A program made the translations under genes and the position numbers. DNA of 64,000 nt, taken from contig JBANDB010000007.1 in assembly GCA_037576215.1 (NCBI GenBank), forward strand, positions 1,085,001 to 1,149,000. Direction: 5' to 3'. The notes under the pieces were generated by a model. That model saw nothing but the letters and a program-made list of their open reading frames with translations. It was not told where the DNA came from and made no database searches. Origin of the DNA: Armillaria gallica (lineage: Eukaryota > Basidiomycota > Agaricomycetes > Agaricales > Physalacriaceae). Below, one piece after another: positions 4,894 through 31,483 of this stretch. Position 1 is the first letter of the stretch; the number at the start of each line of letters is the position of its first letter.

Positions 4894-5000
4894 TTCTACT
4901 AAACTTCCTAATGCACACCACGGAAGTCTTTTTATGCCCTCGAACCGACGAAACACCTGACCCCTGAAACACATACAGAACCAAAAGAACCCCAAATACA

Positions 5001-8000: not shown

Positions 8001-8291
8001 ATTACCGCCACCAGCAACAGGAATGTTACAGGTGGCGCAACAAGTTCGACACCGCCCAAAGCACTGGCACCACCTAAGGGCCGAGACTTGGGAGGAAGGT
8101 GGGTAGCACCCGTAGGGGCAGACACGAGAATGCAGGTGGACCGGGCACGATATATGAGGGAAGGGCTCTGTTTCAAATGCAGTGGCAAGGGACACCTATC
8201 GAAGGATTGCCCCAGGCCGAGACAGGAGGTTAGAACAGTGATGATGACAGAGGAAGTACCCAAGCCGAAAGTACTCAGGTGGAGGAGGTAA
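5001..8291 (+). pseudogene. gypsy gag, one frame interrupted by stops
   Basis: A single frame (frame 3) reads from about 5001 to the TAA at 8289-8291 with no frameshift needed, but with about ten in-frame stops, mostly TGA (for example at 5937, 6276, 6618, 6867 and 7596). A hydrophobic segment of about 24 residues (TALIGALLIFFFTSLILLAY, near 5575-5635) sits in the N-terminal third, which is unusual for a Gag. The central part is acidic and proline-rich (SGEDFLSYQQRLVRD near 6305). The capsid-like part (LRKFKGEHDDIERFIGDC, near 7350) precedes a CCHC zinc knuckle (CFKCSGKGHLSKDC, near 8170-8210). A 428-aa ORF in another frame at 5821-7107 is only the Ser/Thr/Pro-rich shadow of this frame. Length is about 1,100 codons if the start is at 5001; the true start is uncertain. 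Confidence 0.75.
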
Positions 8292-8454
8292 AAGATTAGG
8301 TCGCTCGGGTTCTGATTTGCCCGCAGCGACCACGAACTTTACTGGTGCGCATTCTCATACCGTTGAACGGTCTTATTATGCTTTACAAACAGACATTTTT
8401 ACTATGCATTCGGCTATACCCTGACCCTCACGTGCAGGGTCAGTTTCTACTTAT

Positions 8455-9820
8455 GTGACTTTAAAAGAACAAAAAAATATTGATACGAAAAATTTACGGC
8501 CTACATGCCATTTTTCGACTTCTACGCACCCAGTTACAGAATCAGTGAACCAATACAATGCCCTTCGGGGCATAGATTTTACTAACGACGAACCAGATGT
8601 CTCTCCCCCACAAGGAGAGATAACTGTGGGCTCTCACTCAACGCATGCTGAAGTGGGGAAACCTGCAGCAAGAAGAGCGGCTAATCGACCGGCAAGTAAC
8701 TCATCGCAAGCGAACGCATTGATCGAAAAGGTGACCACCATATCACCACCCATCATAATGGCGGCGCCTGGGGCACATAGTCTCAAGACTCAAGGTGACG
8801 TCAAGGGCCAACCAGATGGGGCAGGAGTTACGACGCCTCCGCTCGCAGAGTGTGCATGACCTGACGAAGTGGCCCCCCGGGCTCGGCCAATAGATGTGTT
8901 GAGTTCGTCAAAAACCGGCCTGAACTCAGGGAGAACTGCAAGGATGGATGAACCGGCTATCAGAGTACGAGTAGCCGAGGCGAAGACCACTTCCCGTGAC
9001 CAGTCACGGGGCCTGCACCCCCAGGGACTAGATCCACCGATGACCAAAGGGAGGTTGGGAACCCCAAAAGCAACGAGGGACCCTATGGGATCACAAGATC
9101 CCCATCAGGGCCTGGGAGTGAGTGACGTGACTGGTAAGTCCGTTCATTCGGCACAAGTCAAGTCTGGCACCTCCACGCATGGCGGCAATGGCGACTCTCC
9201 CAGGAAACGCACCTCCAGTTCCTCACTTGCGACTGGGGAGGATGACAAGAAAGCCGAATGGAAGAAAGCCACTAGCGCCCAGGCGGTAAAGAGGGGGCAC
9301 GTAAGTATGATCAAAGTACCAGATGAGGAAGACAACATGTCTTTCCAATGATGGCTTGCCGCAGGCAGCCTGACGACTTCTCCGAGGCAGTGTCAGAAGA
9401 CGCTCCTGACTCCCCCAGAGTCCCCAACACACGCGACCAAGTCTCTCCCTAACGAGGGGGTTGAGACTCCGAGAAGGGTGACCTCGCCAATGGTAGCTGT
9501 ACCCACCAAGGTCAGTGCGAAGGTTCGAGAGGTCCCTCACCAATGGATGAAACCTTTCGAGGTTGATTGGACGCTACGAGCCGTCCGCGAAGCGTCAAGT
9601 GACAATGCCGCTCGCACCGTCCTTTGTTTATGGATACACAAGGACTGACTCAGAGAGCTCTCTGACGAGCTACTCCATGAACTCCGAACCAACGACGAAG
9701 AATACTCCTGGGAGAAACTCTACAAACTCCGGGAGTCGATCCAATATATCCGTGGAGCCACCAGCGATCTGATGATCCTGATCAAGCTCAAACCCTGCAC
9801 AGGATGGAAGGTCCTGAGCC
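8455..9820 (+). pseudogene. gypsy pol-like reading frame, 5' part, truncated by KDZ insertion
   Basis: Frame 1 stays readable from about 8455 to the KDZ border at 9820, with TGA stops near 8857, 9350 and 9646 and no frameshift. It follows gag, so this is probably the N-terminal region of Pol. The sequence is basic and Ser/Thr-rich, then becomes a charged helical stretch (LRELSDELLHELRTNDEEYS, near 9650-9710). I see no protease DTG/DSG motif or reverse transcriptase motif, so those domains would have lain to the right of the break. The 160 bases between gag and this frame hold nothing I recognise. Confidence 0.5.
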
Positions 9821-9851
9821 AGCCTGGGCTGCTAGATTTCCGCTTGAAATG

Positions 9852-9897
9852 TGTCAGTTGACAGATGTAATTAATGTATCAGAAGTGTCAGTGGACA
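9852..9897 (+). promoter_or_regulatory. Paired TGTCA-N2-TGACA motifs, 34-bp spacing (one of six element ends)
   Basis: TGTCAGTTGACA (9852) and TGTCAGTGGACA (9886) start 34 bp apart. The same pair with the same 34-bp spacing occurs at 13205/13239, 18666/18700, 21593/21627 and 29779/29813. At 16096/16146 the spacing is 50. The position close to each end suggests binding sites for transposition or regulation. Confidence 0.65.
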
Positions 9898-10008
9898 GTC
9901 CAGGCTATATAGGGTAATCTCGCAGTACTGCATAGCATATGAGTCAGCAAACCAGCTTGGATTAGTCATCACTCTGAACCAAGTCAATGATGACATCATC
10001 TGAGAATG

Positions 10009-10112
10009 CGGTGAAGGCAGGAATCAAACCCAAGACCTTAAAAAGGTTGCCAATATAATCACATGACTTTACAAAGATTACTTGTACTAACCACTACACC
10101 ACACTGGCATTA
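10009..10112 (-). repeat. tRNA-like (Pol III box A/box B) segment, KDZ left end
   Basis: Read on the minus strand, a box A-like TGGTGTAGTGG is followed about 75 bases later by a box B-like GGTTTGATTCC. The interval contains 'gtcatgtgat' and 'tttttaagg', which recur in the other copies. The spacing is longer than in an intron-less tRNA and I cannot fold a complete cloverleaf by eye. I call it tRNA-derived, not a functional tRNA gene. Confidence 0.6.
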
Positions 10113-13100
10113 AATGTATTGCTATTCATGTTCTCATATGGCATCCTTTTTTATATGTTATAATATTATATTAACTATATTTTTGATGGCACGCTTTGTT
10201 GCGCTTTCCTTTCCTTTTTAGGATAGTGATGCGATCCAATTAAATTCCATAAAGTTTTACTGATACTATTGGGATTCGAACACATGTTTGGCATCGTAGT
10301 GTATAGTTTTCAAAATGATGATACTGCTAAAAATCTCCACGTGGGATCAGAGATCCGCAAAATCCTCCTCATCCAGCTCCTGCTCATCCTCCTCGTCTCA
10401 AATTCCGACATCCTCATCATCAGCATCCTCGTTGATGTCATCCTCATGATCCAGTTCATTTATCGGTGTATCCTTGAGAGCCATCGACCAGGTATCTCGA
10501 AACTTGACCGCTAGTTTATGCTGTAGGTCACTTTGTTTGAGAGCATAGGCTGCTAAGGCTTCAAGCAATGTGGCACCCACGTTCCGTGTGCTGCGTTGTT
10601 CCATCCACCACTCCCCTCGCCATTCCAAGAACCTCAAGGTCCTACGCATCTCCTCCCAAAGGAGTAAAACCTCCTTGCGTGCTCGATGCGCTCTTGCACG
10701 GCTACGGCACCATTCGGAACGTAGGACTTCATCGCTATTTTCATCAGCCCCATCCTCTAGGTTAATCTTCGTGGTCGTCCAGATCCAAGAAAGAGTACGC
10801 CAAGTTTGGCCCATCCCATCCCGTTTTTTGTGATCATCCTGGTACAAGTCAATACCATGCTCTACAGGTTCGGGGGTAGATCCTGGGCCCCAGCTATCTT
10901 CATTTGTTCCTCGGTGACCTGTTCCTCTGTGAAGGTGATCTGGATCCTGATAGGAACGTATATCGCTATCCTCAAGCTCACGCAGTGTCCTCTCCCAATC
11001 TCCAGGGCCGCTCAACTTCAGCTTCGCCTCCCTTGCTGTACGGTACTTGAGTGCTGCCGCTAGTGCCCATTCGTGAATGGCATCAATGCCCGCCTGCGAT
11101 CGTGTTCCATCTCGCTGGCCTCGCACATTCTTGTTCTTGTACTCAACCATCCGCATTTTTAGGCGCAAGACGTGGCGAACCGAATTCAATGCATCGTGGC
11201 ATTGGGCAGTGTGTAGACGCTCTTCCATGTCTGATAATGAGCCACATACTTGGCCCCTACGATCTGCTGGTAGGCTGGAGGGCAGCCATAGCTGGACTTC
11301 CTCAGCTAATGTTCCACCTGAGGGGTGATCTACCTCCTGGGTCTCGCTGACAAACTGCAAGAGCCCAGGCATGTAGGTCGCACGTAATTCTTCAAATTTT
11401 TTGATCTTCGCCTGGAGGAGACTTCGCTGTTCTGCAGTGTGGGCATCTTGGTGAGCTGTCGGATTGGCTTTGAGCTTCTTGATCTCTGAATGTAGTTTTC
11501 GTCTAAATAAGCCATCAGACCAAGTTTCCTAAAGGTACGGTACTCACTGTGACTCCTCGAGGACTAAACTGAAAACCATGGACGCCGAAGGACTCATGTC
11601 GTGAATCACCCTTCCTCCACTCCTCCTGCGAGCTTCCTCCTCCTCAGCCAGCTCTTTATGAACTTGGTCTTCGGTCAAATCTACGGAACTATATGAATAC
11701 CTGTAGATCCAAAGTGAATTGACCAGCCTACCATCGCTCAGAACACAGAAAGGGTTCAGTGTTGTCTTAGGAACCTTATCAGCCTCCCATGCCACACACA
11801 GATCATCCCATTCGCTGACCATATCTGGTGGCAAGCTTTGTGTGAACCCCCGATGTGCTTCTTCCTGCCAGTTTCGCTCTGTGAGAGCAACCTTGTACCA
11901 TTTCCAAAGTGTTAACCCTAATCACGATGAATACAGATCCCGGCGAGTTTGAAAAATGCTCACCCATGCAACAATATTTGACCCAATTCCAAAATCCAAG
12001 ATGGTCATCAATCAAGTCCTGCCATGTACCAGGTCCCGCAGTTTTGGTGGAATTTTCAAGGGCATTGTGACCCGCCCAGATCCTTTCGGGACATTCTCCA
12101 TCTGATAAACCAACACCTTCAGCAAGATTGAAGGAGAATTGTTCGTGTTCCTCCGCCTTATGGCCTGGTTCATGGAACTTCGGTACGAGTGGGGTTATTC
12201 TGATATTAGGATTGAACTGAAGCTCGGAAGGCCAGTGCGAGGTCATTCGTGTAAATATCGTCTTGATCCACTGGCAGGCGATATCATAACTAATGACGAC
12301 CCAAAGCAGGTCCGAGAATTGGTGGATGGCTGCTGCAGCGAGGGGGTCGACGTTGGCATATTTGTTGACCGAGAGTGAGTGCTCGACTTGATGGCGTAGC
12401 TATGACAGCGCACCTTTCGCCCTTGTTTGTATTTCTGACACATGTCAGTAGAACCATCTCACTTCTTCCACAGGAGACGGCAACCACACCGGTGTATCTG
12501 AGCCCCTTTGAAAACTTTGTATTTGACTTTGCCATGGCGGAAAACTCTACACAAGTACTAATCTGCAGCAACGTCAGTAACAGTGATCATAAAGGAAAGA
12601 AGTAAGAACCAACGTCTGCGTCCGTTGCTCAACTTCGAACGTAGTCCTCATAGGGCTCACGAGCAGTGAAGTACGACCAACCAATGCCAAGACCTGGGTC
12701 CCTCAAGTACGACGACACAATCTGGTTTTTAAGACAAAAGTTCGCGTCAATGCATATCAGTAAAAGGTACAAAAATCTAGCTCAGCAGGTTAATACCAAC
12801 AGACAGTCGTATTGTAACATTTATCCCTACTTCAAATGGGGGGGCGCTTGATCCCAGTCAGAAGGGAGGTTTAGTCCTGGCTGAGGGCAGGATGGACAGA
12901 GGACAGCTAGCTTGCCTGGCTTCGTACCCTCAGGTCCAGTGACATCATGTGCCCGGCCACCCCTCTTTAACAGCCACAGGTGTCGCCATTGAACAAGCAT
13001 ACACATCAGCGCTGCTTTACGAGAGGGCAGCGTATTCAACCCCGTATTGTCGGTCATCCTCTCCAAAGTGTGATAGAAATGATACGTAGATGTCTTGGAG

Positions 13101-13330
13101 ACAAGGGAAAGGAGGTGGAGCATTTCCAACAACCGAAATGTTGCACAAGTCCTCACCACCTGCTGGCTAGCCACCTATAGCTGCTACTTTAACAGATCAA
13201 ATAGTGTCAGTTGACACACACTGAAAAGACAATATGAGTGTCAGTTGAAAATATTCAATTTCTCAGGATTATATGGTAGATTAGTCAGCAGACCAACTCT
13301 TGACATCATGACATCATCAGAAAATCCCAG

Positions 13331-13428
13331 CAGACCCGGGAATTGAACCCAGGATCTTAAAAAGATTTATAATAATATCACATGACTTTTCCAAGCAGAC
13401 ATGCTAACCACTATACCATACTAGCATT
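13331..13428 (-). repeat. tRNA-like segment, palindrome A left arm
   Basis: On the minus strand it has box A-like TGGTATAGTGG (11 bases) and box B-like GGTTCAATTCC (one mismatch to the usual GGTTCGANTCC). It is the inverted partner of 15919-16019. Confidence 0.65.
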
Positions 13429-15918
13429 ATATATTTATGTAATCATCACTCTATATGACCTCCCTCTCTTAGATTTATAATATCCCAATTGGGCCCTCCC
13501 TTTGGTGCGCTTTGTTGCGCTTTTTTTTCCTTATTGGGTTGGTCAAATCGGCCCATCAATTGCACCTAGAATTAGCTCTCCCATGGCATTGATGGCATCA
13601 ATATCAGGCTATTTTCGGACAAAATTCGCATTTTGGCTCATTTTGGGCTTCCTCAGGCTACTGGGTGGGTCAGGGGATGGTACTAGTATATGCCTAAACA
13701 TAAATAGCATAAAAGCGAACCCTCTGGTGAGGTATGGGGGCCCTGGGGAGGGGGTAAAAAGGGTAAAATAGTGAAAAATAGCGGAAAATCACCGAAAATT
13801 CGCGTTTTGGGGGTACTACGTGCATCGGATCGCTTCGAAAACTTGACCAATGAATTCCTTGACCTTTAAAACCCCCAAACGGCCCCTCCACAGTACATGT
13901 GGCGCATTTTATGGCTAGGCATAATCGGGAAAATTGGCTTTTTATGGTACTGCGTACATTGGATAGCTCCGGGAATGCTACCAATCGATTTCTACACTAT
14001 ATAAACCCTAGAATACATCTTCATATGCTATATATGACCACCGGAATGCGATGAAAAATGGGGGATTGGGGGGGAAACACGGTTTATTTTGTTTTCTGGC
14101 CATCGCGTCGGTCTGGGGACATCACCAATCGATTCCTCGACCTTTAAAACCCCCAGGCGACTCTTGGTTACATTTATGGGGTCTCAGGAACGATGGCAAT
14201 AATGATGTAACAGTTTAGGAGGAGCACATAGGAAAACTCGCATTTCTGAGCTTCGGAAAACTTCGGAGTTGTTACCAATGGATTCCTTGACCTTGAAAAC
14301 CCCAGAACACCCCAGGAACACATTTAAAACCTTTGAAATCCGTGGTAAAAAAGGTGATAATGAAAATATGCGAAATACCATATATCTCGCATTTCTGAAT
14401 GTCGGAGAAGGTAATTCTGCTATAGAATACACGATATATATTGTATAATAGTGTGTACAAAAGATTAGGGTGATCAGAAATGTATTGGCAGAGATATAAG
14501 GAGATCTTTCTGAAAAAAGGAGGAGCACCCCCAGATTTCGAGTTTCTGGTCATCCCATGGCCTGGGGACTATCAGATTCGGATTCCTGGACCCAAAAAAC
14601 ATAAGACTCATCTATCATCCATGGGGCTCATTTTTACTAGTGCATGATCCTTGCAGACAACATAACTTTGTGCATAAATGAGAGCACACTCATTACTTCG
14701 GAGTTTTGATACATGAACCCCATGGATGATAGATGAGTCTTATGTTTTTTGGGTCCAGGAATCCGAATCTGATAGTCCCCAGGCCATGGGATGACCAGAA
14801 ACTCGAAATCTGGGGGGTGCTCCTCCTTTTTTTCAGAAAGATCTCCTTATATCTCTGCCAATACATTTCTGATCACCCTAATCTTTTGTACACACTATTA
14901 TACAATATATATCGTGTATTCTATAGCAGAATTACCTTCTCCGACATTCAGAAATGCGAGATATATGGTATTTCGCATATTTTCATTATCACCTTTTTTA
15001 CCACGGATTTCAAAGGTTTTAAATGTGTTCCTGGGGTGTTCTGGGGGTTTTCAAGGTCAAGGAATCCATTGGTAACAACTCCGAAGTTTTCCGAAGCTCA
15101 GAAATGCGAGTTTTCCTATGTGCTCCTCCTAAACTGTTACATCATTATTGCCATCGTTCCTGAGACCCCATAAATGTAACCAAGAGTCGCCTGGGGGTTT
15201 TAAAGGTCGAGGAATCGATTGGTGATGTCCCCAGACCGACGCGATGGCCAGAAAACAAAATAAACCGTGTTTCCCCCCCAATCCCCCATTTTTCATCGCA
15301 TTCCGGTGGTCATATATAGCATATGAAGATGTATTCTAGGGTTTATATAGTGTAGAAATCGATTGGTAGCATTCCCGGAGCTATCCAATGTACGCAGTAC
15401 CATAAAAAGCCAATTTTCCCGATTATGCCTAGCCATAAAATGCGCCACATGTACTGTGGAGGGGCCGTTTGGGGGTTTTAAAGGTCAAGGAATTCATTGG
15501 TCAAGTTTTCGAAGCGATCCGATGCACGTAGTACCCCCAAAACGCGAATTTCCGGTGATTTTCCGCTATTTTACACTATTTTACCCTTTTTACCCCCTCC
15601 CCAGGGCCCCCATACCTCACCAGAGGGTTCGCTTTTATGCTATTTATGTTTAGGCATATACTAGTACCATCCCCTGACCCACCCAGTAGCCGAGGAAGCC
15701 CAAAATGAGCCAAAATGCGAATTTTGTCCGAAACTAGCCTGATATTGATGCCATCAATGCCATGGGAGAGCTAATTCTAGGTGCAATTGATGGGCCGATT
15801 TGACCAACCCAATAAGGAAAAAAAAGCGCAACAAAGCGCACCAAAGGGAGGGCCCAATTGGGATATTATAAATCTAAGAGAGGGAGGTCATATAGAGTGA
15901 TGATTACATAAATATATA

Positions 15919-16019
15919 ATGCTAGTATGGTATAGTGGTTAGCATGTCTGCTTGGAAAAGTCATGTGATATTATTATAAATCTTTTTAAGATCCTGGGTT
16001 CAATTCCCGGGTCTGCCGG
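15919..16019 (+). repeat. tRNA-like segment, palindrome A right arm
   Basis: This is the plus-strand copy with TGGTATAGTGG, then gtcatgtgat and tttttaaga, then GGGTTCAATTCCCGGG, which can form a T-arm-like hairpin. The gap between the boxes is about 30 bases longer than in an intron-less tRNA. Confidence 0.65.
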
Positions 16020-18624
16020 GATTTTCTGATGATGTCATGATGTCAAGAGTTGGTCTGCTGACTAATCTACCATATAATCCTGAGAAATTGAATATTTTCA
16101 ACTGACACTCATATTGCAACCTTTTCAATGGCAACATCATGAATGTGTCAACTGACACTATTTAAACTTTGGTGGTTCAGCTGAAGAAATGCTAAAGACC
16201 TGTCCATTGCTTAGAGGGAAGTCAGCGCTGAACGGACAATGAGACACAACAGGACATGCAAACCAAATCATTGAGGAAGCAGTCTTTACAACGAATCTCT
16301 GGTTCCCCCTGAGCCCCCTCCTCAAGATTCCAGGCGATACAGTCAGGGCATTTCAGATTCTGGTGACTGTCGCCTTGTCTGTCGTGGCGAGTAATCTCGT
16401 CGAGATAAAGGGATCTGAACTGCTCCTTCCACACCAAATGAGGCCGTCTCTGTGTCAATTAGCCTTAGCATCCAAGCTGGTTTCACAGGACTTGCCACCC
16501 ACCGAAAGTTTCGACCTGCTTGACTGTTGAACTTCCGCAGCATTATCTTGGAAGATACTGCTTTCAAATACTTCTGAATTCATCTGGTCCTCGTAATCCC
16601 TCCCGTCCACGTCGAGTGAAAGCTCAGAGTCGTCAGGAGAGATCCATGTATTTCCAAGCGACCACCCTGCTTTGCCGTGTAAGGGCTGAGGCTGAGAGGA
16701 GGATACGTGTCCAAGCTGATCGGTGTGAGATGTCCGGAAGCGCACATTGCCATAGCCATCCTCATATTCTATGCGACGGTGGGTAGTTTCCGAGCGTTTA
16801 GGAGGACGACCATGCCTCATTGCGACAGCAGTGAATGTGATGAACGAGTGACGGAGTAACGTCTCGGCAGCATTTGCCACGTAGAACGTCGGTGTCAACC
16901 GGGCTCTCAAAATAACCGAAGAGCGCGCAGCAGACGGCGCGTGTGCACACTCAGGCTATTCATACTGAACACACAATTGGGATATATATCCACCACACCC
17001 AGATATATGTAAGTAAATAACATAGAAGTAAAAACGAGGCTTTAACCCAACATACTCTGCAGCACATACGTGACATCTCCCATAGCAAACTCCAGCTCCT
17101 TCCGCACCTCATTGTATCTAGCCCTCTCACAATGCGTGGTCTGAGGAAGAGCTTTCACCCCCACAGACCAGAAGAAAAGCGCCGCCATTACACTGACCAA
17201 ACCGTTCTTCCCCGAGTGTGTCTTCAAGCACCCCCAGTTAACGTCCGTTGATGGATGAATTTGGATAGGGCGACCGTCCGGTTCACGTTTGAGATCCTCG
17301 ATGCTATCCTCTGATCCATCCACACGATCTTCAGGCTGGAGATTCGCCCACCAGGCCCAGAAAGGCTCCTGAAACTTGGAGACTACATTGAGATTCACGT
17401 AAGTCGGTCGCCACTTCTGTGATCTTGCACAAGCAATCCACTGCCCTACGCACTCGGGACGCTCTTCAGCGGATAGCTTGTCGCTGCTGTCGAAATCATT
17501 TGTGAACTGGAATGCTACCCATGAATAGACGACTTGAGACCAGTCAGGTCCAAAACTACCCGACTTGAACATCTCAAGTGCCTTTATTGCCCAAGGAGGA
17601 GCATTGGAGGGGAAAACGATACTGGCAAGGAGGGGTACGGGGTCCTCAGCCCCCGCAGGCTCCTTCACGATGTTTTTGGGACCCTTCTTCTTCGGCATAT
17701 TATCACCTTGCCCATCAACCTTCCTTCATTTGGTAACAGCACCATCACAGGGATCATCCCCAGCCGGTCGCTTTTTGATACTCAATTGCCCCGTACGGAA
17801 CCCTAGTGCCGAGCCACCTTGCACCGTACGGGAGAGGCCCACTCTCGCGAATCGATTTGGCCTGCAGGTAAGGTTCAAAGTGCTGATCTGTACCGCGTTG
17901 GTGTCCTTCGTTGCTAGGGCTTTGCTTGAAATAAGCGAGATATCTGTATTTATGGAAGGCTGGGCGAGGTGTCCAGATGATGCAGTCAAATTGGAAGCGG
18001 CCTCAGACATAACGGGAGGAGACGCCAGCAGAGGCGGCGGAGAGATCAGAGGGGATGGCGGCTGTGAGACGGGTGGTGGTGTAGCAGGACGCGAGGGTGG
18101 GGGGGGTGAAGCACCGAGTGAGGGAGCGAGCAATGATGGTCGAGAAGCTGGTTGCATTTGTGCAGGCACTGTGGCTCCCGTCTTAACTACTGTCGCTGAT
18201 TTTGATGCCAGAAGTTGGGAAAGGGTTGGAAGACTGCTAGGCCTTCCGGTGTGTCCCGATGGCTTGGTTGCTTTGACAACGGCGGACTTGTTGCCTTTGG
18301 GAGGCTTGGTAGATGCAACTGTCGATGAAGAGGAAGTGGAGGGGGAAGAAGCCTTGGACCCGACAGTATTTGGCCCATCAACCTCATCTACAATGGCGGC
18401 CTCATACTCCTTCAACCCCAATCCCAACTCCTCCAGAGCCTCCAGACCTGCATCGTCGGGTAAGGCCATAGCTTGACAATCTTCAGGACCTGTATCATCA
18501 ATGACAGTCAGGATGAGTGGATAACAAAGTATTGAACTTACGGTAACACTTTTTTAAGAATCTGGCGTACATTGGTTCGACGATCTTGCGGTAAAGGATC
18601 CTCTCTGAGTCGACAAAGTTCTGC

Positions 18625-18632
18625 GCTCCAGG
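18625..18632 (+). other. Target-site duplication of palindrome B, left (GCTCCAGG)
   Basis: GCTCCAGG here and GCTCCGGG at 21670-21677 flank palindrome B with one difference, a transition. Removing the palindrome with one copy joins ...KTLGPGA to QNFVDSE... in one open frame, which supports these exact borders. Confidence 0.85.
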
Positions 18633-18800
18633 CACCTAATGCTGCTACTTTTCCCCTTGAAATAGTGTCAGTTGACAGTGGTAATTAAGGTATCAGGACT
18701 GTCAGTTGACACACCAGCCTATATAGGGTATTTTCGCAGTACTGCATGGTCTATTAGTCAGCACAGAAACCCAGACCAAATCATGTGATTATCAGAAAAT

Positions 18801-18903
18801 CCGGCAACTCTGGGAATTGAACTCAAGACCTTAAAAAGATTTACAATAATGTCACATGACATGGCCAAAGTGTGCATGCTAACCACTATATCATACTGGC
18901 ATT
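18801..18903 (-). repeat. tRNA-like segment, palindrome B left arm
   Basis: On the minus strand it has TGATATAGTGG (box A-like) and AGTTCAATTCC (box B-like). It is more degraded than in palindrome A and is the partner of 21402-21503. Confidence 0.55.
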
Positions 18904-21401
18904 ATATATTTATGTAATCATCTCCCTATATGGCCTCCCTTTCTGAGATTTATAATATTCCAATTGGGCCCTCCCTTTGGTGCGCTTTGGTGCGCTTTTT
19001 TTTTTCCGTATTGGGCTGGTCAAATTGGCCCATCAATTGCACCTAGAATTGGCTGTGCCATGGTATTGATGGCATCAATATCAGGCAATTTTTAGACAAA
19101 ATTCGCATTTTTGCCTATTTTGGGCTTCCTCAGGCTACTGGGTGGGTCAGGGGATGGTACTAGTATATGCATAAACATAAATAGCATAAAAGCGAACCCT
19201 CTGGTGAGGTATGGGGGCCCTGGGGAGGGGGTAAAAAGGGTAAAATAGTGAAAAATAGCGGAAAATCACCGAAAATTCGCGTTTTAGGGGTAATACGTGC
19301 GTCGGATCGCTTCAAAAACTTGACAAATGAATTCCCTGACCTTGAAAACCCCTAAACGGCCCCTCTACAGTACATGTGGCGCATTTTATGGCTAGGCATA
19401 ATCGGGAAAATTGGCTTTTTATGGTACTGCGTACATTGGATCACTCCGGAGATGTTACCAATCGATTTCTACACTATGAAAACCTTAGAATACATCTTCA
19501 TATGCTATATATAACTACCAGAATGCAATGAAAAATGGGGGATTGGGCGGGAAACACGGTTTATTTTGTTTTCTAGGCATCTCGTCAGTCTGGGGACATC
19601 ACCAATCGATTTCTCGACCTTGAAAACCCCCAAACAACTCTTGGGTACATTTATAGGGTCTCAGGAACGATGGAAATATTAATGTAACAGTTTAGGAGGA
19701 GCACATATGGAAACTCACATTTCTGAGCTTCGGAAAACTTCGTAGTTGTCGCCAATGGATTTCTTGACCTTGAAAACCCCCAGAACATCACAGGAACACA
19801 TTTAAAACCTTTGAAATCCGTGGTAAAAAAGGTGATAGTGAAAATATGCGAAATACCATATATCTCGCCTTTTTGAGTGTTGGGGATGGTAATTCTGGTA
19901 TAGAATACACGATATATATTGTATAATAGTGTGTACAAAAGCTTAGGATGATCCTACATGTATTGGCAGAGATATAAGGAGATCTTTCTGAAGAAAAGAA
20001 GGAGCACTTCCCAGATTTTGAGTTTCTGGTCATCCCATGGCCTGGAGACTATCAGATTCGGATTCCTGGACCCAAAAAACATAAGATTCATCTATCATCC
20101 CTGAGGGTCATTTTTACTAGTGCATAATCCATGCACACAGCATATTTTTGTGCATAACTGAGTGCACACTCATTACTTCGGAGTTTTAACACATAAACCC
20201 CATGGATGATTGGTGTTCCTACCATTTTTTGGGTCCAGGAATCCGAATCTGATAGTCTCCAGGCCATGGGATGACCAGAAACTCAAAATCTGGGAAGTGC
20301 TCCTTCTTTTCTTCAGAAAGATCTCCTTATATCTCTGCCAATACATGTAGGATCATCCTAAGCTTTTGTACACACTATTATACAATATATATCGTGTATT
20401 CTATACCAGAATTACCATCCCCAACACTCAAAAAGGCGAGATATATGGTATTTCGCATATTTTCACTATCACCTTTTTTACCACGGATTTCAAAGGTTTT
20501 AAATGTGTTCCTGTGATGTTCTGGGGGTTTTCAAGGTCAAGAAATCCATTGGCGACAACTACGAAGTTTTCCGAAGCTCAGAAATGTGAGTTTCCATATG
20601 TGCTCCTCCTAAACTGTTACATTAATATTTCCATCGTTCCTGAGACCCTATAAATGTACCCAAGAGTTGTTTGGGGGTTTTCAAGGTCGAGAAATCGATT
20701 GGTGATGTCCCCAGACTGACGAGATGCCTAGAAAACAAAATAAACCGTGTTTCCCGCCCAATCCCCCATTTTTCATTGCATTCTGGTAGTTATATATAGC
20801 ATATGAAGATGTATTCTAAGGTTTTCATAGTGTAGAAATCGATTGGTAACATCTCCGGAGTGATCCAATGTACGCAGTACCATAAAAAGCCAATTTTCCC
20901 GATTATGCCTAGCCATAAAATGCGCCACATGTACTGTAGAGGGGCCGTTTAGGGGTTTTCAAGGTCAGGGAATTCATTTGTCAAGTTTTTGAAGCGATCC
21001 GACGCACGTATTACCCCTAAAACGCGAATTTTCGGTGATTTTCCGCTATTTTTCACTATTTTACCCTTTTTACCCCCTCCCCAGGGCCCCCATACCTCAC
21101 CAGAGGGTTCGCTTTTATGCTATTTATGTTTATGCATATACTAGTACCATCCCCTGACCCACCCAGTAGCCTGAGGAAGCCCAAAATAGGCAAAAATGCG
21201 AATTTTGTCTAAAAATTGCCTGATATTGATGCCATCAATACCATGGCACAGCCAATTCTAGGTGCAATTGATGGGCCAATTTGACCAGCCCAATACGGAA
21301 AAAAAAAAGCGCACCAAAGCGCACCAAAGGGAGGGCCCAATTGGAATATTATAAATCTCAGAAAGGGAGGCCATATAGGGAGATGATTACATAAATATAT
21401 A

Positions 21402-21503
21402 ATGCCAGTATGATATAGTGGTTAGCATGCACACTTTGGCCATGTCATGTGACATTATTGTAAATCTTTTTAAGGTCTTGAGTTCAATTCCCAGAGTTGC
21501 CGG
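21402..21503 (+). repeat. tRNA-like segment, palindrome B right arm
   Basis: TGATATAGTGGTTAGC is followed by gtcatgtgac, tttttaaggtc and GAGTTCAATTCCCAG. It is the same layout as the other copies. Confidence 0.55.
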
Positions 21504-21669
21504 ATTTTCTGATAATCACATGATTTGGTCTGGGTTTCTGTGCTGACTAATAGACCATGCAGTACTGCGAAAATACCCTATATAGGCTGGTGTGTCAACT
21601 GACAGTCCTGATACATTAATTATCACTGTCAACTGACACATTTCAAGCAGAAATCTAGCAGCCCAGGCT

Positions 21670-21677
21670 GCTCCGGG
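21670..21677 (+). other. Target-site duplication of palindrome B, right (GCTCCGGG)
   Basis: It pairs with 18625-18632 at seven of eight positions. Confidence 0.85.
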
Positions 21678-22728
21678 ACCTAGTGTTTTTCCTGAACATA
21701 TGCTGTGGAAACTGTCAGAGCTAAAACACAGATATTGACCTAGCATACCTGATGACATTCAGGTGCCCTCCGTCATTAGGTTCAGGCCCCCCCCATAGCA
21801 AGGCGAGCTTTCCATTCGTAGCCTTTGCCACCTGATCGAGGATTGGAAGCATAAATTGAGAAAGATTATCGATGCATCTGGAGGTAATTCAGGATGGGAA
21901 CACCTTAAGCAGAATAGCACACGTACTTCTGTATTTTGATTGGATCTGACGATGCCTTCCTGTTCGTGTTAGCTTCCCACTCCGCTAAGGCAGCGGTGTG
22001 CTCATTCTCACTCCTCTTCATCCATTCCTTCTTTTCCTCCTCTGGAAGGGCATTGTAGCGGTCGCTCCGCATGCTCTGGCGTTTGCCTGGTTTCTGCTTT
22101 TCTGACACCTCGCCTTGATCGACCATCTTCTGCAGTTCCTCTTCAATCTCTTGGCCGTATAATTTGCACCATAGATTGTACGCAGTTCGTCGACGTGGTT
22201 TCTGAGTTGTATGACCGGTTAAACTCGCAAGGAGGAAGTTGTAAGGATTGTCAGTATCTCTGGCCATGTTGTTTTGGCTCAGATCGTCATGATATCGGAG
22301 CCAGCGGTCGATTCGCTGACAAATCGACATGTGAGTCAGCAGTCATGACGGTAATTTCAAAAATGGTCGTGACTTACACCTATGCGCGATTTGACCGTGT
22401 CCTGGTGTTCCTTGTAATCTTTCATGGCCTTCACGAACTCTTCCGGTTTTAATTTAGTCGCATCTGGGAAAAGCTTTTCGGAGATCGGCGCATTATCATC
22501 CACGAGTGCTAGGGCTTCCGCAGTGGGTTCTTCGTTCTCTGGGAGAGAGGGAGAGAACCTTTTAAAGTAACGTCGATGGACGCCAAGGCAAAACGCTCGG
22601 AGGTCTCCGTCTCTTTTTGCCTTTGCATAGCCGGGCAGCTGCTCCGTCAAGAAAACCTGCCGAGCCCCTCGGAATGTTCCAGGATTGACCATACTGGCGA
22701 CAAGATCAGTCTTTGCATGCCTGATCAT

Positions 22729-23282
22729 CAGTGATCATTGGACTTACGTTTTTTGTAGAAGGTATGTGTGGATTTTGTTGAAAGTGGGAAGGCAAGGATG
22801 GTTTTCCCAGATTCGACTCAAGGAGCACACCTAAGTACCAGTGGACGGGCCCATCTAGACAGTAATCGGTGACGATTTATCTGAGGTATGTAAGTTTCTC
22901 GTGACATGAAAATTTGCTAAGTCTAGGCGTCAACTGACATATATTAGTTGACAGGGTTAGTGCATCCAAATAGAATACCCAGGTGTCAGTTCCCAGGTGT
23001 CTCTTGACCCGGTCGCCTTGAGAAGTCATACAATGTGACAAATTGCAAGACCTGGATCCCCCGGTCATCGGTGGGATGCTCCCAAATAGAATATCCCCTT
23101 CGCCCTTGAAACTTGAAGCTTTAATAAGGACCCAGACGTGTACTCCCACCACCTCGATATTGATGCCCCCTCCCCCGAGTGCTGTTCCAGCCCAATCCGC
23201 TGCCACATCTGGTACAACCTTCGCCCTTCCCTTGCCTGAACTCCCACTAATGGCACTCCCCAGCTTTAGACTTTGTGTCAAT
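22729..23282. promoter_or_regulatory. Divergent intergenic region between HMG-box gene and RNase H1 N-domain gene
   Basis: The two genes are transcribed away from each other. The region carries GTCAACTGACA (from 22929) and GTTGACAG (about 22946), the same motif that is paired at the element's ends. A further upstream exon of the HMG-box gene probably lies at 22.75-22.84 kb, before a GTAAGT donor. An ORF at 23043-23315 overlaps the start of the RNase H1 N-domain gene but has no recognisable domain; it may be 5' UTR. Confidence 0.45.
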
Positions 23283-23991
23283 GATGGCCGCCCTTGCCAA
23301 TCTCAACCTCTCTAATGGTGGTATGTGTAGTATTTCCCTCAGATCTTCCCCTTGACTCACAAGTATTTAGCTACTCTGACGACCACCACAACAACCACCA
23401 ATAGACTCCACCTTCCCGCCTCGAGTGCTGGTGTAGGCACCCCGACTCTTCCTGTGACTGCTGCCAGTACCACAACCGCTGGGACCCCTAGCAGTACCAC
23501 CAGTATTTCCCTCACCACTGCTACGCCACCCACTGCTCGTGCTACTGCTAATATGGCTCCTGCTGCAACGGCCCCCGCCCCTGCTTGTGCAGAACGCTGG
23601 GTCTATCACGTTCCTAGGCCAGAGGACCTTCCCCATCCTCCCGCCATCTGGCCCCCTCAAAATAACTTTTATGTCGTCACATCCGGACAAGAAGTCGGGA
23701 TTTTTTTCACTTGGTATGTTTTCTTTTTTCTTCCTGGCGTCTTGAGCTTACAGGACCATCAGGACTGAGACTGCGGAGAGGGTCATCAGTGTTCCAGGAA
23801 ATATTTATGAGTGGAAGAATAACTACTACGATGCTGTCGACATCTACCGCCGTGCCTATGACAAAGAACAAGTCCACGTCACCCCCCTTGCTGGTTTCCA
23901 CTTTGATGTATCCATCGAAGACGAATGGGGTTTGTTGGACTGGGGTAGCGACAATGAAGACAGCTTCCTGGCTGCTACGAGCCAGGATTAG
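23283..23991 (+). CDS. RNase H1 N-terminal (viroplasmin-like) domain protein, KDZ cargo
   Basis: The first exon reads MMAALANLNLSNG, with a GTATGTG donor near 23322. The second exon is very Thr/Ala/Pro-rich, then gives NNFYVVTSGQEVGIFFTW. A GTATGT...ACAG intron (23714-23753) follows, then RTETAERVISVPGNIYEW and YYDAVDIYRRAY, and an acidic tail (DEWGLLDWGSDNEDS) to TAG at 23989. The FYVV-G-GIF-TW...VSG-like pattern is that of the hybrid-binding N-terminal domain of RNase H1. No catalytic RNase H domain follows, so it would bind nucleic acid without cutting it. I found no internal stop if the two introns are removed. Start choice is tentative. Confidence 0.6.
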
Positions 23992-24747
23992 AAGTAGGGT
24001 GATGGACCTAGTAGCTGCTTCTTACATTTACATTTCTTTTGAAAAAATGTCGATTTAGTTTCTTTTTGTTTAGTATAGAAAACCCAACAATGTCATCTGC
24101 CATGCATCTGTCTGAATTGAGTCTTATGAAGAGGGTCTGCCAAATGAAACATATATTGATTCAGATGAATCATCTGAGCTTAGAAGTCATGAGATTGGAA
24201 TGAAAAGGTACCAGATATCATGGTACACTTTCTCCAACATCTCTCGGCGACCTCGCCGCCAGACAGTCCAGCTTTTTCCTATTGAGGTGTCTTCGACCAT
24301 TGAATCTTGATCATCCATAGTCGTTATATTATCACTTTGATAAAGATCGGTTTGGTATCTATGCCATTCAGATTTAGGATCTGTTGTAGCTATTCTGAAA
24401 GTGTTTCCCCATAGGATTCGTTGATAGATGTCGTCCGTTAATAGCTTAGTGGGTTACCTCGGAACTCCCTCGTTGACAAAGTGGTTCCATCATGTTGATA
24501 GAGATGAGCAAAAAGATCAGGAGACAGTCGAAGCCGTTTGAATGTGCTGCTAATGTAGCAAGATGCCAATCTTGCTGTCAAACAATTCTACACATCATAA
24601 GAAAGTACTTCAGCAGCAAGGAGTAGGATAATCAGGATACCTGGGTGCTTTTAGAACGCACTGTGTTTTATGGGTTCATGTTCATGTCAATTTGCGGTCT
24701 GTCGTTGTTATTTGATTGAGAGTGCTCCATTATGAATGGTATACTCA
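23992..24747. other. Intergenic region, nothing recognised
   Basis: This AT-rich stretch lies between the RNase H1 N-domain gene and the 3' end of the TET/JBP gene; the two genes converge here. It contains short ORFs only. Confidence 0.5.
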
Positions 24748-26556
24748 TCATTTATCCTCCTTAAGTACAGAAAGTTTAGAATATAGACCTAGGCCCATCT
24801 CCCATCGCCCAGCGCGAGTTCTGAGGGCAGCGTCGCGCTCCTCACCATTCAGCTGGCGCCAGTAATCCTCACTCAGCTGAAACCCATGATCCACCCAGCG
24901 AAATAACCCCCCTGCCGTATACTGCGTAAATGAGTACCTCGTTTCTCCACGGCTAATGGTCGTGTTGGAGTGTCGGAGCACGGCTGATGGAATCAGTATG
25001 GTGGAACCTGGAGGAAACTCAATCACTAATTTGAGGTCCCACAAAATCAGGTGGCTGCCCTTCTTGGGGTTGAACCGACCAAGCGCTGTTATGGCGCACC
25101 AACCGAAGGGTAGATTGCCAGAATCCGTATGTTCGACAGTTACAGTTTTTGGCCCGAAATTGAATATGCAGGCAGAAAAGATGCTGTTGGCGAAGTTGAG
25201 AATCAGGCTGTCGTCACTGAGGAGAAGGGCCTTGAGGTGCATGGCATAGTACTGAAACAGGGATGGGGCCCATGCTGCGAAGACACCTAACATACTTCTC
25301 AGCCTAAGTGATGGCAATAGTCACAGTGCCGTAACATACCTGAGGCGAATCCTGCCAGACGTATGAAGGCGATATGATTGATGAGGGTCGCCAAGACTTG
25401 TGCCGTGGTGCCCTCATGATGAAGATTCTGCGGGAACTGGGGACGCATTAGTCATAACCGACACTTTGAGGGAGGGTGGAATTTCGCACCGTTTGCCCTC
25501 CGCCAAATGAAATTCCAACTGAGAGTGCCGAATAGCGCCCACGGCGATGCTTCCGCTGTTTCCGTGAGAAGGTACATTTGCCTCAACTTTGTTCCAGGAG
25601 GTCGGACGCTGATGTATGTATGCTCTCCCAATCAGGATCTTCGGGCTGCCCCACTAGAACAGTGATGACACACCCCTCGTCGTCGGCTATGGGTATCGCC
25701 TCTCTAGGGGTTTGTGAAGAGTCGGGGTTGTAGCTGGGGGTTGAATGCTCACCTTCCGCTCCAAGCCTTGTAATCAAATCCATACTGGCTGTTCGGTCCC
25801 ACTAAATCCTGCAGGGCAACTGGTCGTTTCCAACCCTCATCAAAGTGCTTACCTACATAGGCAGAGGACGCTACGGGGGCTTTCTCAGTGGCGTACGCTG
25901 TTTGGACTTCTTCGGGCTGGGTCTGGTGCTTGCGCTTTGTATTCGCCCGGGCTTGATAGTTGTAGGGCTTGTTTGATTCACGTTGTTTTGCCCGTTGTTT
26001 CTTGCGGTTCACGTGGCTCTGCTTTTTCTGGTGATTTCAGGGGTTCAAGGACATTGGAAGGGGCGATATATCAAAGGTTCCTGGCTTTGGTGAATGGGGC
26101 AGCATGGGATGTGGCATTGTGGGAATGGAAGAGAGGGGATCGCTGAGGTCGTTGAGGTCATATGCATCCAGAGGATCAAGGATCTCTTCGTGGTCGACGC
26201 AATCACAGACCAGGTGTGAGAAGCTGAAGTCAGGATCTGAGCTCACCTCCGGCTGGGTTGAGACTTGCCATGGAGAGAAATGGCTACCAGATCTGGTCTA
26301 AATACACAGTTAGTGGGCGGCTGGGGGAATGGGAATAATGTTACACACCGTTCGGAAGGAGAAGAATTCAGTAAGGACACCTATGGGTTCCAAAATCAGC
26401 GCCTGCAGAGATTTGACATAAGACCCGGCCATCGCAATGCACCCATACCATACAGCAGTTACCTCGATGCCTCATATTCCCAGGCTTGAGTATTTGTAGG
26501 CATGAGGTAGTCGCTGTAATGGTGGATGCTGCAAATGTAGCTAAAAATGGACTCAT
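24748..26556 (-). pseudogene. TET/JBP-family 2-oxoglutarate/Fe(II) dioxygenase, KDZ cargo, two in-frame TGA stops
   Basis: The family oxidises 5-methyl-pyrimidines in DNA. The double-stranded beta-helix core is complete in the 24748-25317 exon: the HxD pair in VEHTDSGNLPFGW (about 25130), GGHL-type strand GSHLILWDLKLVIEFPPGS, distal His in PSAVLRHSN (about 24970) and 2OG-binding Arg in GETRYSFTQY (about 24935), then GGLFRWVDHGF. Upstream exons give RYSALSVGISFGGGQT and LINHIAFIRLAGFAS, linked by GT-AG introns near 25.47 and 25.32 kb. Another intron near 25.73 kb joins FDYKAWSG to REAIPIADDEG. The N-terminal part is acidic, then very basic (RKKQRAKQRE). TGA codons at 25583-25585 and 26037-26039 interrupt an otherwise continuous frame. 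Both are readable as mutated CGA. First exons (26.3-26.56 kb) are tentative. Confidence 0.85.
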
Positions 26557-27015
26557 GCGGTAGGATCTTCATGGGGGGATCAGTTGTGTGGTGGTGGCGC
26601 GAAAGTCAAAGGTGAAAGTTTCTACTGTCAACAACCAATCAACAACCTTTGTTAGAACGCATTGTGGTCACATGTTTGTTATATAACTTAGTTTAAGCCT
26701 CGTGTTTCAGAGTTTAAAACTCCAAAACCTTGCCGAACCAAAGCCGAGGATCCAAAACGTACTTATCTTGTGTTTCTTGCCTCGCCGACCGCTATATGAG
26801 AACCCGGGATATGCCCAAAGTTAGTCATAATGTTTCTTTGACGATGTGCAATTCTTTGGACCCAGCATAAACAGTAGGTGGCAAGGACACTGTCGGTCAT
26901 GACCGGACCAAGCATGAACAATCTGAATGCAACATTGACAATGCAACCTGGGTATAAGTACTAGGAATGATGAATCCCAGTAGCAACACATGCCTAACCA
27001 CTCCGCATCCTGATC
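26557..27015. promoter_or_regulatory. Divergent region between TET/JBP gene and coiled-coil gene
   Basis: The two genes diverge from here. A TATA-like GGTATAAGTA lies near 26950, about 65 bases upstream of the ATG at 27016. No other motif stands out. Confidence 0.4.
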
Positions 27016-27912
27016 ATGCCTCCAGCCCCCCAACCTGTACCCCTCAGGCCGATTATGCCACCAGAGCTCCCTCCCACAGTCGCACTGTTCATTACTCGGC
27101 TTGAGGTACCCGATGTCCCACCGTCTCTAAAGAATATCACCAACTCAGACAGATGGGTTACCCAAGTCAAAACCCATGTCTGTGAGACTACTTCAATGCA
27201 TATCATTCGTATTTAAGCTTACTTGTATGTGCAGATACAAACGAGAACCCGACATTGACAGAAGATCATGTTGGCAAGGCGTTAGTAAATCAACACAGGT
27301 TGTTGACTGCTCACACAGCGAGTGCGTTATTTTCCTGGCTGGGTCACGTGTATTTTCTGATGCAATCAAACAGATCACCCTGAACAGATGCCCGCCTGGG
27401 CGAGATTGATGGAGCAGCAGTTGCAGCAAAACGCAACTTTGAACAAGAATGAACTGACAGCATTGATTACGGGGGTTGAAGAGAAGTTAACACTTGTTGA
27501 ACAGGATATAAAAGGAAAGATCGATGAGGTTGATAAGAAGGTTGAAGCTCTAAGTAAGAGAGTCATCAATGTTGAAATCCTTACAGCCCGAGTACGTTGC
27601 TTAGTGTTCTGCCTAAGTAACTTCTAACCTGTTGTGTAGGCCCACAATCTTTCATGTGGTGATGGCAACGACCGTGCTTATGTACCCATTGCGTCACCGA
27701 CCGGGCACTTTCCCAATGAGGATGGATTCAGCCATAATGTTTACGAATTACCCCCCTTGTGTCATGCTGATGATCTCCGGAATCTCATCGACTCGCACCT
27801 CAATGCCTACATCCAGGGATATGGCATCCGCTCTGGTCGGCGGAATACGACGAGGCGCGAGGAGAAGCTTGGAAAGTTACGATATTACATTGGAAGTCAA
27901 GCAGCTCTTTAG
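27016..27912 (+). CDS. Coiled-coil KDZ cargo protein
   Basis: The N-terminal exon is Pro-rich (MPPAPQPVPLRPIMPPELPP...) with VTQVKTHV before a GTGAGA donor near 27180. Short exons follow (ENPTLTEDHVGKALVNQH). The main exon has a heptad-like charged helix (LTLVEQDIKGKIDEVDKKV, 27.42-27.58 kb). After an intron near 27.59-27.64 kb the last exon reads HNLSCGDGNDRAYVPIASP ... PPLCHADDLRNLIDSHLNAY ... KLGKLRYYIGSQAAL and stops at 27910-27912. I recognise the layout (coiled coil, then a hydrophilic DGxD...PPL domain) as common in Agaricomycete KDZ neighbourhoods, but know no function. Exon borders in the first half are uncertain. Confidence 0.55.
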
Positions 27913-28233
27913 GTTCATACATTTTTCGAAGTACATACTGTGTGGTTTATAAGATAGTGCTGCGATATCATCTTTTATCATTCCCGGATCTTGCACAAGA
28001 ATAAGCCCTTACTTTTTGCCTCCCCGCCTGTGTCCCTGCCTTTTGTGTAGGCCCCTGAGAGGCCGCACCCTGGGTGTTCACAATGGCAGATAATTAGAAG
28101 TACATATTCATTCAGACAAATTATTGGTAATGTTAGCGACAGTGTAGCTGTCCCCTCTGCCCTTCTATCCTCGGTGGCTCAAAAGTCGACTTCGGGGTTA
28201 AGCTGAGGTGAGCCGAGTCGCGGCAACACTAAT

Positions 28234-28420
28234 CTGGTTGGAAATACGTCTGAAAATACCACGGGAGGTTTTTCTGAATATCGTACCAAGGGTTTTCTAT
28301 GCGTCCTTTGTGTGCAAAGACCTATGAAGATATACCTCCTGAATTATAATATAAGGTCTTTCTGCACAAAGGACGCACAGAAAACCTCCCGTGGTATTTT
28401 CAGACATATTTCGAACCAGA
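28234..28420. repeat. 187-bp palindromic MITE-like repeat
   Basis: The two ends are inverted copies: CTGGTTGGAAATACGTCTGA at left and its partner ending TCGAACCAG at right, followed inward by 'ataccacgggaggtttt' in both arms and then 'gcgtcctttgtg'. Arms are about 75 bases. No target duplication is evident. Confidence 0.8.
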
Positions 28421-29569
28421 AAACAGCTGAAAGATAAATACGTGGAAATCTGTACTGTATTTGGATAGGCATTTACACGTCAGTCTTTCGGTCTCTAAAC
28501 TTGCCTAAAAATGTATGCTTCTTTTGAACGGATCTTTTCATCTTGATTACTCACTACCCGTTCAAATGGCCCACGATGTTGACGATGGGCATTGCCCCAA
28601 TCGCAGGCCCACACTCAACCTTGACCATGGATCCCACATCTATTGCTATTTACATGTAGGACGACACGTGTGCCAAAATCCTGCCCAGCGATGACGACAA
28701 CAGTGGTAGTGTATCAATAGGCGAAGGGGGTGGCAACCAAGAGAAAGGTGCCGGGTGGCCTGAAAGTGATGTGACGACGGTGTGGAGGCACGGAAAGGGG
28801 AAGGTGTGACCAGGAGGGCAGTGGCGCGGGTACAGTAGGGGGCGGGAATCCTAACACATTTCTTCCATACAACAGCGATGACGGTCACTGCTACTCCACC
28901 AATGCTCACAGCCCACACCCGTGTTAGGATAATGACATTACTACCTTGCCAGCTGAATTGAGGACGACGCCACCACCATCCAGCCCCACCGGCATCAATT
29001 CACCGCGACGAGCGTATGGCCAGCCGTCATGTTCGACTGCCCACGACGATGAGGGATACAACAGCGAACACCGTGCTCTGTCGTCATCGCCGCTACTGCC
29101 TCAATGGAATCCAACCCAACCCTGACCCCGTATATCATTCCCGGTGACCACACCCTGCCACACTGCCATCTGGCCGCTGTACCCGTTTTCTGGTATAGCG
29201 AAAAGGGTAGTGCCGTTCGGGGGCGTCCACCCCCACATACGTGCACACCACAGCAGCCACTGGATATTGCACAATTTGTCTGCCCACCGACCTCCTACCA
29301 GCACATTGTCTCGCACCACCATTTTGGCATCATCCCCGTCCCCATGCAAGGCCTCTCTATCCCTATCCTGATGGCGAGAGTCTACACACCTAATCCTATA
29401 TTTAAAAAATGTAAATTGCACATAATTAATATATAATAATTAAAATCAAAAAGTATTGCATAAACAAATCTATCTGCTTATTTAGGCCACTGGTGGGCGC
29501 AGCGGCGGAATCAATGTCGGTGGTGATGGCAGGCCTGATGACATCGCAAATATATGGGTGGAGGTCATA
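28421..29569. other. KDZ internal region, no recognised gene
   Basis: Short ORFs occur on both strands, for example 28646-28918 (minus) with one hydrophobic stretch. None shows a family motif. A short inverted repeat, TAACAC/GTGTTA, sits at about 28852 and 28920. Confidence 0.45.
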
Positions 29570-29857
29570 TAATTATGCAGTAAACATCAACTTATAACAG
29601 TGGTTTGGTGTAGTGGTTATATTGTCACTTGTAGATCAATCACATGATGCTTGTTTTTGAAGGCCCCGAGTTTGACTCTCGGCACTGCCGAAAATATTTC
29701 ATGCGGTCATGGGTCGGTTTGCCAGCAGTAGCTTACTAATGCTCTCATAATCACATAAGTACTCTATATAGGCTGGGCTGTCCACTGACAGTCCTGATGC
29801 ATTAATTACATCTGTCAACTGACACTGTTTCAAGCATTAAAGTAGCAGCATTAGGTG
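29570..29857 (-). repeat. Right terminal inverted repeat of the KDZ element
   Basis: Read inward on the minus strand it gives CACCTAATGCTGCTACTTT, TGTCAGTTGACA (29813-29824), the 'gtaattaatgcatcagga' phrase, a second motif TGTCAGTGGACA (29779-29790), ctatatag and then the tRNA-like segment. It matches the left end base by base over the phrases quoted. Confidence 0.85.
29597..29691 (+). repeat. tRNA-like segment, KDZ right end
   Basis: TTGGTGTAGTGGTTA (box A-like) and GAGTTTGACTC (box B-like) flank a divergent middle with 'tcacatgatg'. It occupies the same place relative to the end as the left copy. Confidence 0.5.
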
Positions 29858-31447: not shown

Positions 31448-31483
31448 ATGGCAGTCGGGACGTCTGCCTTAACGAGGAGGTGA

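Follow-up and report, generated by a model that had tools for sequence, protein, structure and literature searches.

A probable Kyakuja-type KDZ transposon with a TET/JBP gene, and palindromes that share its ends, in Armillaria gallica

The element, its ends and its genes

We analysed a 64,000-nucleotide stretch of the Armillaria gallica genome (the window; assembly GCA_037576215.1, contig JBANDB010000007.1, here C7:1085001-1149000), which contains a 20-kb element carrying a KDZ transposase gene and a gene for a TET/JBP dioxygenase. The element is a real unit, complete end to end, and occupies positions 9820 to 29857 (20,038 bp); it lies inside a Ty3/gypsy chromovirus and is itself interrupted by two palindromes, P1 (13172-16163) and P2 (18633-21670). 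The whole genome (86 Mb in 28 contigs) was searched for related sequences, and all counts from these searches are lower bounds, the best candidates having been scored. A query made from the left end of the element gave a 99% match on contig C1 and a right-end query gave another C1 match 14.2 kb away. The stretch so delimited (C1:1950762-1964998, 14,237 bp) is a sister copy, hereafter the C1 copy, without either palindrome. The two copies are colinear over window positions 9820-13171, 16244-18638 and 21670-29857 and stop at identical bases, and the C1 copy is flanked on each side of CAGCC...AGGTG by AATTTGG, a perfect 7-bp target site duplication (TSD). Alignment to another genomic copy, which the original prediction had proposed as a check, thus bore out the right end at 29857 and moved the left end from 9821 to one base earlier, the element beginning with CAGCC and not AGCC.

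The element starts with CA and finishes with TG. Its A end (9820-9864, plus strand, CAGCCTGGGCTGCTA...) and its B end (29812-29857, minus strand, CACCTAATGCTGCTA...) are the same in the C1 copy and in the palindromes. The outer ~30 bases of the two ends are unlike (CAGCCTGGGCTG... at the A end versus CACCTAATGCTG... at the B end), and a subterminal stretch, GTGTCAGTTGACAG..., is common to both in inverted orientation, starting about 30 bp inside. The matching inverted ends that had been predicted are therefore not present at the termini themselves, the inverted match being found only farther in. A plain reading of the ends as terminal inverted repeats (TIRs) was rejected because the outer ~30 bp are unlike and because A pairs with B in 22 of 23 end pairs in the genome (see below).

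The KDZ transposase gene (10350-16955, minus strand) was delimited by Pfam matches and comparison with the C1 copy, its exon limits being read by hand. As predicted, it encodes a KDZ domain (PF18758, E 2.9e-32) together with a CxC cluster, CxC2 (PF18803), which was matched at E 1.7e-12 in the window and at 2e-33 in the sister copy. The gene is broken in the window, where P1 splits the CxC2 exon and one premature stop lies near the end of the last open reading frame (ORF). Beside it lies a long accessory gene (17042-22734, minus strand) with an HMG-like N-terminal part (21905-22734) and a proline-rich/C-terminal part (17042-18553); in the window the gene is interrupted by P2 and also by a single premature stop. 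The possibility of two genes, HMG-like and long-ORF, was considered and rejected: single Armillaria proteins span both parts (729-aa and 597-aa examples), and the C1 copy holds an open 507-aa ORF where the window shows two ORFs. The nearest relative of the encoded protein, from A. ostoyae, is 83% identical. The ORF predicted to be an HMG-box-like gene is present, but it is the start of this longer gene and Pfam support for it is absent, the HMG box match (PF00505) being weak at E 0.73 and HMG_box_2 appearing in one of 23 relatives at E 0.31.

A gene for an RNase H1 N-terminal domain (RNase H1-N; 23331-23988, plus strand, two exons) has homologues in elements on contigs C15 and C18. The domain predicted for it was recovered with a hand-spliced ORF of the C1 copy only (PF01693, 24.0 bits versus a cut-off of 21, the splice junction, placed approximately, falling within the match), and the two exons searched singly gave no match to PF01693. 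The TET/JBP gene (24751-26297, minus strand) comprises several exons with the HxD motif and the distal H present; two premature stops fall in its upstream-exon ORFs in the window, and its exon ORFs are open in the C1 copy. Its homologues number 2,564 at E <= 0.001, and the best 120 of these 2,564 include two named JBP1/TET and three named prolyl 4-hydroxylase. The nearest protein, from A. fumosa, is 82% identical, and H64, D66 and H117 are invariant across 32 aligned sequences with identities to the window TET protein down to 51%. The structure predicted for one ORF that covers the last exon placed CcTet, NgTET and TET2 at the top of the VIA list of fold neighbours, which suggests a TET-like 2OG-Fe(II) fold; specifically, CcTET from Coprinopsis cinerea (PDB 7vpn, 7w5p, 8jkk) is a fold match with 14% identity over the aligned part. 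Homologues and modelled fold together uphold the TET/JBP dioxygenase gene of the original prediction. Lastly, a small ORF (27361-27624, plus strand), coiled-coil-like as judged by eye, was observed in this family alone, in its window and C1 copies. The ORF proposed as a coiled-coil gene is thus there, but a search of the C15 and C18 stretches, covering the C15 element up to its last ~0.6 kb, gave no counterpart. Since a single gene comprises the HMG-like ORF and the next long ORF, the predicted five-gene content becomes four genes plus a small ORF.

A second family and the Kyakuja assignment

A second complete member was found at C15:364119-378097 (13,979 bp), between perfect duplications (ATTTTCG/ATTTTCG). 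It has an A end and a B end of another type (CACCTATAGC...), and the four genes lie together between them; their co-occurrence between such ends, on which the five-gene unit had been staked, therefore holds with the small ORF outside the set. The gene order on C15 is KDZ minus, TET plus, RNase H1-N minus and long gene plus, and C18 has the same order read in reverse, the long gene being a 56-residue match only in the stretch fetched. In the window family the order is KDZ minus, long gene minus, RNase H1-N plus and TET minus, so that the three-gene block made of the long gene, RNase H1-N and TET is inverted relative to C15. The original prediction mentioned neither this inversion nor the CpG-type decay and the palindrome behaviour described below. 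Giant transposons in Ectocarpus, KDZ included, mostly carry nested unrelated insertions according to the accessible part of PMC12477816, and the gene set could likewise be an accident of nested insertions rather than one unit. Since the C15 member, bounded by A and B ends and a TSD, has the four genes too, and since the long gene and TET have consecutive locus tags in Gymnopilus dilepis, we consider such an accident highly improbable.

Across the genome there are at least 32 TET loci (40 rows, with eight second-exon rows merged by hand) and at least 125 KDZ positions. At least 22 of the 32 TET loci lie within 10 kb of a KDZ position, and 21 of these pairs are divergent; the sole non-divergent pair is the C1 copy of the window family. 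Random placement, for which the lengths of contigs C3 and C8 were guessed, put 1.2 TET loci near KDZ on average and never more than 6. In the window copy the KDZ-TET distance is 12.8 kb because the palindromes are inserted. As a separate observation, most KDZ positions lie more than 10 kb from any relative of this TET gene.

The TET gene might nonetheless be a useless passenger, a host gene caught between the ends, as could be argued from the up to 10 of 32 TET loci without KDZ within 10 kb (the window's own included) and from the premature stops in the window copy. This is unlikely in our view. KDZ, TET and RNase H1-N, with the long gene or a part of it, remain together even though TET identity to the window protein falls to 79% on C15 and 64% on C18, the HxD and H residues are invariant over the range of sequences given above, and the TET exon ORFs are open in the C1 copy.

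According to the accessible text of Kojima 2025 (PMC12730594), TET-positive Kyakuja elements have CA..TG termini without TIRs and a 7-bp TSD, and carry an AG-type TET/JBP gene. The elements described here have a KDZ-type transposase (PF18758, CxC2), perfect 7-bp TSDs in both the C1 copy and the C15 member, CA..TG termini without TIRs, and a TET/JBP gene inside both of these members, assigned at the level of TET/JBP rather than of the AG subtype. We therefore place the element in the TET-positive Kyakuja type. Zisupton and Dileera (8-bp TSD, with TIRs in Zisupton) are disfavoured by the 7-bp duplications; an 8-bp reading was rejected, because adding the outer base of the element to the duplication works at the left in no more than 6 of 23 pairs and at the right in no more than 3.

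Linkage of KDZ transposases and TET/JBP genes in basidiomycetes is said to have been described by Iyer et al. in PNAS in 2014, reportedly without defined ends and with a divergent HMG domain among the accessory proteins. The complete end-to-end unit, put forward as new in the original prediction, is not new as a kind because CA..TG ends without TIRs and 7-bp TSDs have already been published, in Kojima 2025 (PMC12730594). Kyakuja-1_LB and Kyakuja-2_LB of Laccaria bicolor, described in the same accessible text, are alike in TSD, termini, KDZ and TET/JBP content and in belonging to Agaricomycetes. Features seen here and not stated in that text are the inverted subterminal stretch, the inverted three-gene block and the palindromic partners; the available main text of PMC12730594 contains no HMG, RNase H or tRNA, and "palindrom" occurs in it once, in an unrelated context. 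The experimentally mobile KDZ1-KDZ3 of Cryptococcus neoformans share a KDZ transposase and CxC domain but differ in having TIRs of 139-241 bp and TSDs of 4-8 bp, and no TET gene is named in the accessible part of that report (PMC12810828). A literature search found no paper pairing Armillaria with Kyakuja. What the present genome offers is the end-to-end structures of two TET-positive Kyakuja families, with an empty site, duplications and a common four-gene cargo, and with these structures one can test whether a transposon benefits from carrying a methylation eraser of its own.

The Ty3 insertion site and decay of the window copy

The surrounding Ty3 chromovirus is in two plus-strand parts, a left part (4491-9819) with a long terminal repeat (LTR; 4491-4879) and a zinc knuckle ORF (7611-8291), and a right part (29858-31868) with integrase, chromo domain and the second LTR (31481-31868). 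Chromo domain (PF00385), integrase (PF00665) and zinc knuckle were all identified, and the two LTRs are 95.4% alike over 389 bp; the predicted nesting in a Ty3/gypsy chromovirus is confirmed by the two Pfam matches and the LTR pair. The genome was searched with both flanks, the best 40 of 107 and the best 40 of 289 candidates being scored. Before the flanks were paired, the rows of the window itself and a single 49-bp row were removed. In 16 of the 18 paired relatives the flanks are 2,047-2,056 bp apart (3,849 and 5,030 bp in the other two), and one relative has protease, reverse transcriptase and RNase H domains in this ~2.05-kb interval. The interval is absent from between the two parts of the window Ty3, and therefore the element replaced ~2.05 kb of its host and the insertion is not clean.

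This loss would most simply have come about by recombination or deletion after insertion. One form that it may have taken is that the window unit is a composite, two Kyakuja insertions in the same orientation in one Ty3 having recombined, with the outer flanks originally 2.05 kb apart. This would account for the lack of a TSD and for two native-looking Ty3 flanks with that spacing in their relatives, and recombination fits two intact ends more easily than does a deletion halting exactly at an end. Against this, no second element or relic is present at the site, and a transposase-mediated adjacent deletion would likewise stop exactly at the end. We regard the composite origin as evenly balanced.

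Over 11,540 bp in two gap-free blocks, the window and C1 copies show 322 differences, 317 of them C/T or G/A (247 of these at CpG) and 5 of other kinds. A third stretch (16244-18640) adds 61 transitions, 4 transversions and 15 gap columns. One or both copies have a CpG dinucleotide at 661 places; the window copy alone has lost 202 of these and the C1 copy alone 48. The direction of change was probably from CpG to TpG, as judged by sequence context rather than by an outgroup. With its transposase, long and TET genes broken, the window copy reads as dead as it stands. The differences between the sister copies, almost all of C/T type and about three quarters at CpG, provide a record of methylation-type decay. 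CpG-biased C-to-T hypermutation has been reported in Tricholoma matsutake (PMC6980582, accessible part), and Kojima (PMC12730594, accessible part) did not detect hypermutation in Agaricomycotina.

The palindromes and the overall interpretation

The prediction that the element is invaded by palindromes sharing its ends was upheld. P2 (3,038 bp) has a B end on the left, an A end on the right, arms of 1,447 nt and an 81-nt spacer; its target duplication is CTCCAGG/CTCCGGG, the site is empty in the C1 copy, and its end types are those of the window family. P1 has a B end on the left and is missing its A end (arms 13230-14631 and 14713-16116); its B end is that of the C15 element, and a palindrome on C15 is 97% like it. 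We surveyed end pairs by fetching 30 of 41 left-end and 30 of 40 right-end matches, which yielded 23 pairs. Identical 7-bp duplications flank 12 of these, the C1 element itself among them, 8 have duplications with one or two transitions, and 3 have none, including one B..B pair. The window element is outside the 23 because the B end of P1 lies between its ends.

At least 16 full-length palindromes (2,984-3,038 bp) are present. Within one copy, the two arms differ at a mean of 10.6 of ~1,400 positions (range 5-18 over 16 palindromes), and between left arms of different copies the median number of differences is 49 (3-78, the 3 being one near-identical pair), left-left divergence between copies being equal to left-right divergence. 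In a tree of 36 arms from 18 copies the copy labels need 17 changes, which is the minimum; the arms of one copy mix with those of a near-identical copy, and those of P1 stand in an unresolved fork. The least expected result was that the central spacer, relative to A and B, is opposite to that of P2 in 9 of 16 copies; the P1 spacer is likewise opposite to that of its C15 relative. On a tree of the 18 left arms, spacer orientation needs 7 changes, at least 4 of them forced by well-supported branches, and it is unclustered (457 of 500 shuffles as low). The best reading, with the caveat of assembly errors at palindromes, is that the arms evolve in concert and the spacer flips because of recombination between the arms.

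We tentatively propose, with somewhat more doubt than confidence, that the palindromes are dedicated non-autonomous Kyakuja partners needing two unlike ends, that their arms recombine often enough to account for four or more spacer flips among 18 copies and for arms of one copy that remain much closer to each other than different copies are, and that each TET-positive family has a palindrome family to itself, the window family pairing with P2-type and the C15 family with P1-type palindromes. If movement needs two unlike ends, a near-perfect 3-kb palindrome can therefore be capped by them. Foldback elements (Tetris in Drosophila virilis, Tm1 in root-knot nematodes) share long inverted arms, a likeness drawn by name from partial records; the palindromes differ from them, as far as those records go, in that a near-perfect palindrome is capped by unlike Kyakuja ends and has its spacer in either orientation. 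Among the literature matches listed, none was a KDZ counterpart of foldback or palindrome elements, and Kyakuja appeared in none of those listed for miniature inverted-repeat transposable, nonautonomous, palindrome or foldback elements. Long inverted repeats are usually unstable, and these partners offer a natural system for arm recombination within them.

Sixteen full-length copies of a near-perfect 3-kb inverted repeat, CpG-depleted as they are (observed/expected 0.54), might instead make long hairpin RNA that silences Kyakuja elements. The inner sequence of the palindromes has no match to the two autonomous elements beyond the terminal ~150-260 bp, so that a small RNA would target the ends only, and we hold this role to be quite unlikely.

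Overall, we consider it very probable that the locus holds a decayed copy of a Kyakuja-type TET transposon whose palindromes were mobilised in trans. Unlike A and B ends, CA..TG termini, 7-bp duplications at other copies and the four-gene cargo in a second family are direct observations, as are the order of nesting and the pattern of decay. By analogy with its family, the KDZ transposase would move the element by cut-and-paste through the A and B ends, and the RNase H1-N and long HMG-like proteins may act as accessory nucleic-acid-binding factors. The TET/JBP enzyme, as proposed by Kojima in the accessible text, would oxidise 5-methylcytosine in the element's own DNA and so relieve CpG silencing. 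The ~3-kb palindromes, being non-autonomous, would depend on these A and B ends for mobilisation in trans, and recombination between their arms would keep the arms alike and flip the spacer. The window copy would then have undergone C-to-T decay, mostly at CpG, and two palindrome hits, and would sit where 2.05 kb of Ty3 was lost.

Several results weigh against this interpretation. The Kyakuja assignment was judged by ends and TSDs and not by a transposase tree, and the window copy itself has no target duplication (CCTGAGC versus CCAAGGC at its flanks). CpG loss in both copies shows that TET gave no lasting protection. As to the enzyme, the catalytic D is only nearly invariant in a second alignment of 38 sequences, no Foldseek match reached an E below 0.001, and no TET came up when the PDB was searched by sequence.

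Some further observations concern individual palindromes. The right flank of P1 (16090-16270) is scrambled relative to the C1 copy, with several small deletions and a short flank-like stretch inside the arm; judged by eye, this arrangement looks like the outcome of template switching. At 3.2 kb from the TET-positive element on C15 there is a P1-type palindrome (C15:381342-384348) with the 7-bp flanks TCGTCCC and TCATCCC. An 18.8-kb B..A interval on C1 was considered as a third autonomous family and rejected, being a palindrome copy with a ~15.7-kb insert; this interrupted copy (C1:2598208-2616977) has kept a 7-bp duplication with one transition. Outside the element, window positions 35875-37380 hold a diverged palindrome-family stretch, 79-87% alike. 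Functional tRNA genes at the ends were also considered and rejected, as ARAGORN (standard settings) and Rfam find no tRNA; the window has three A-box/B-box-like pairs, within the shuffled range of 0-6. These tRNA-like modules, at 10020-10101 (minus), 13339-13418 (minus) and 15928-16007 (plus), occupy matching subterminal places and read outward at the left end of the element and at both ends of P1.

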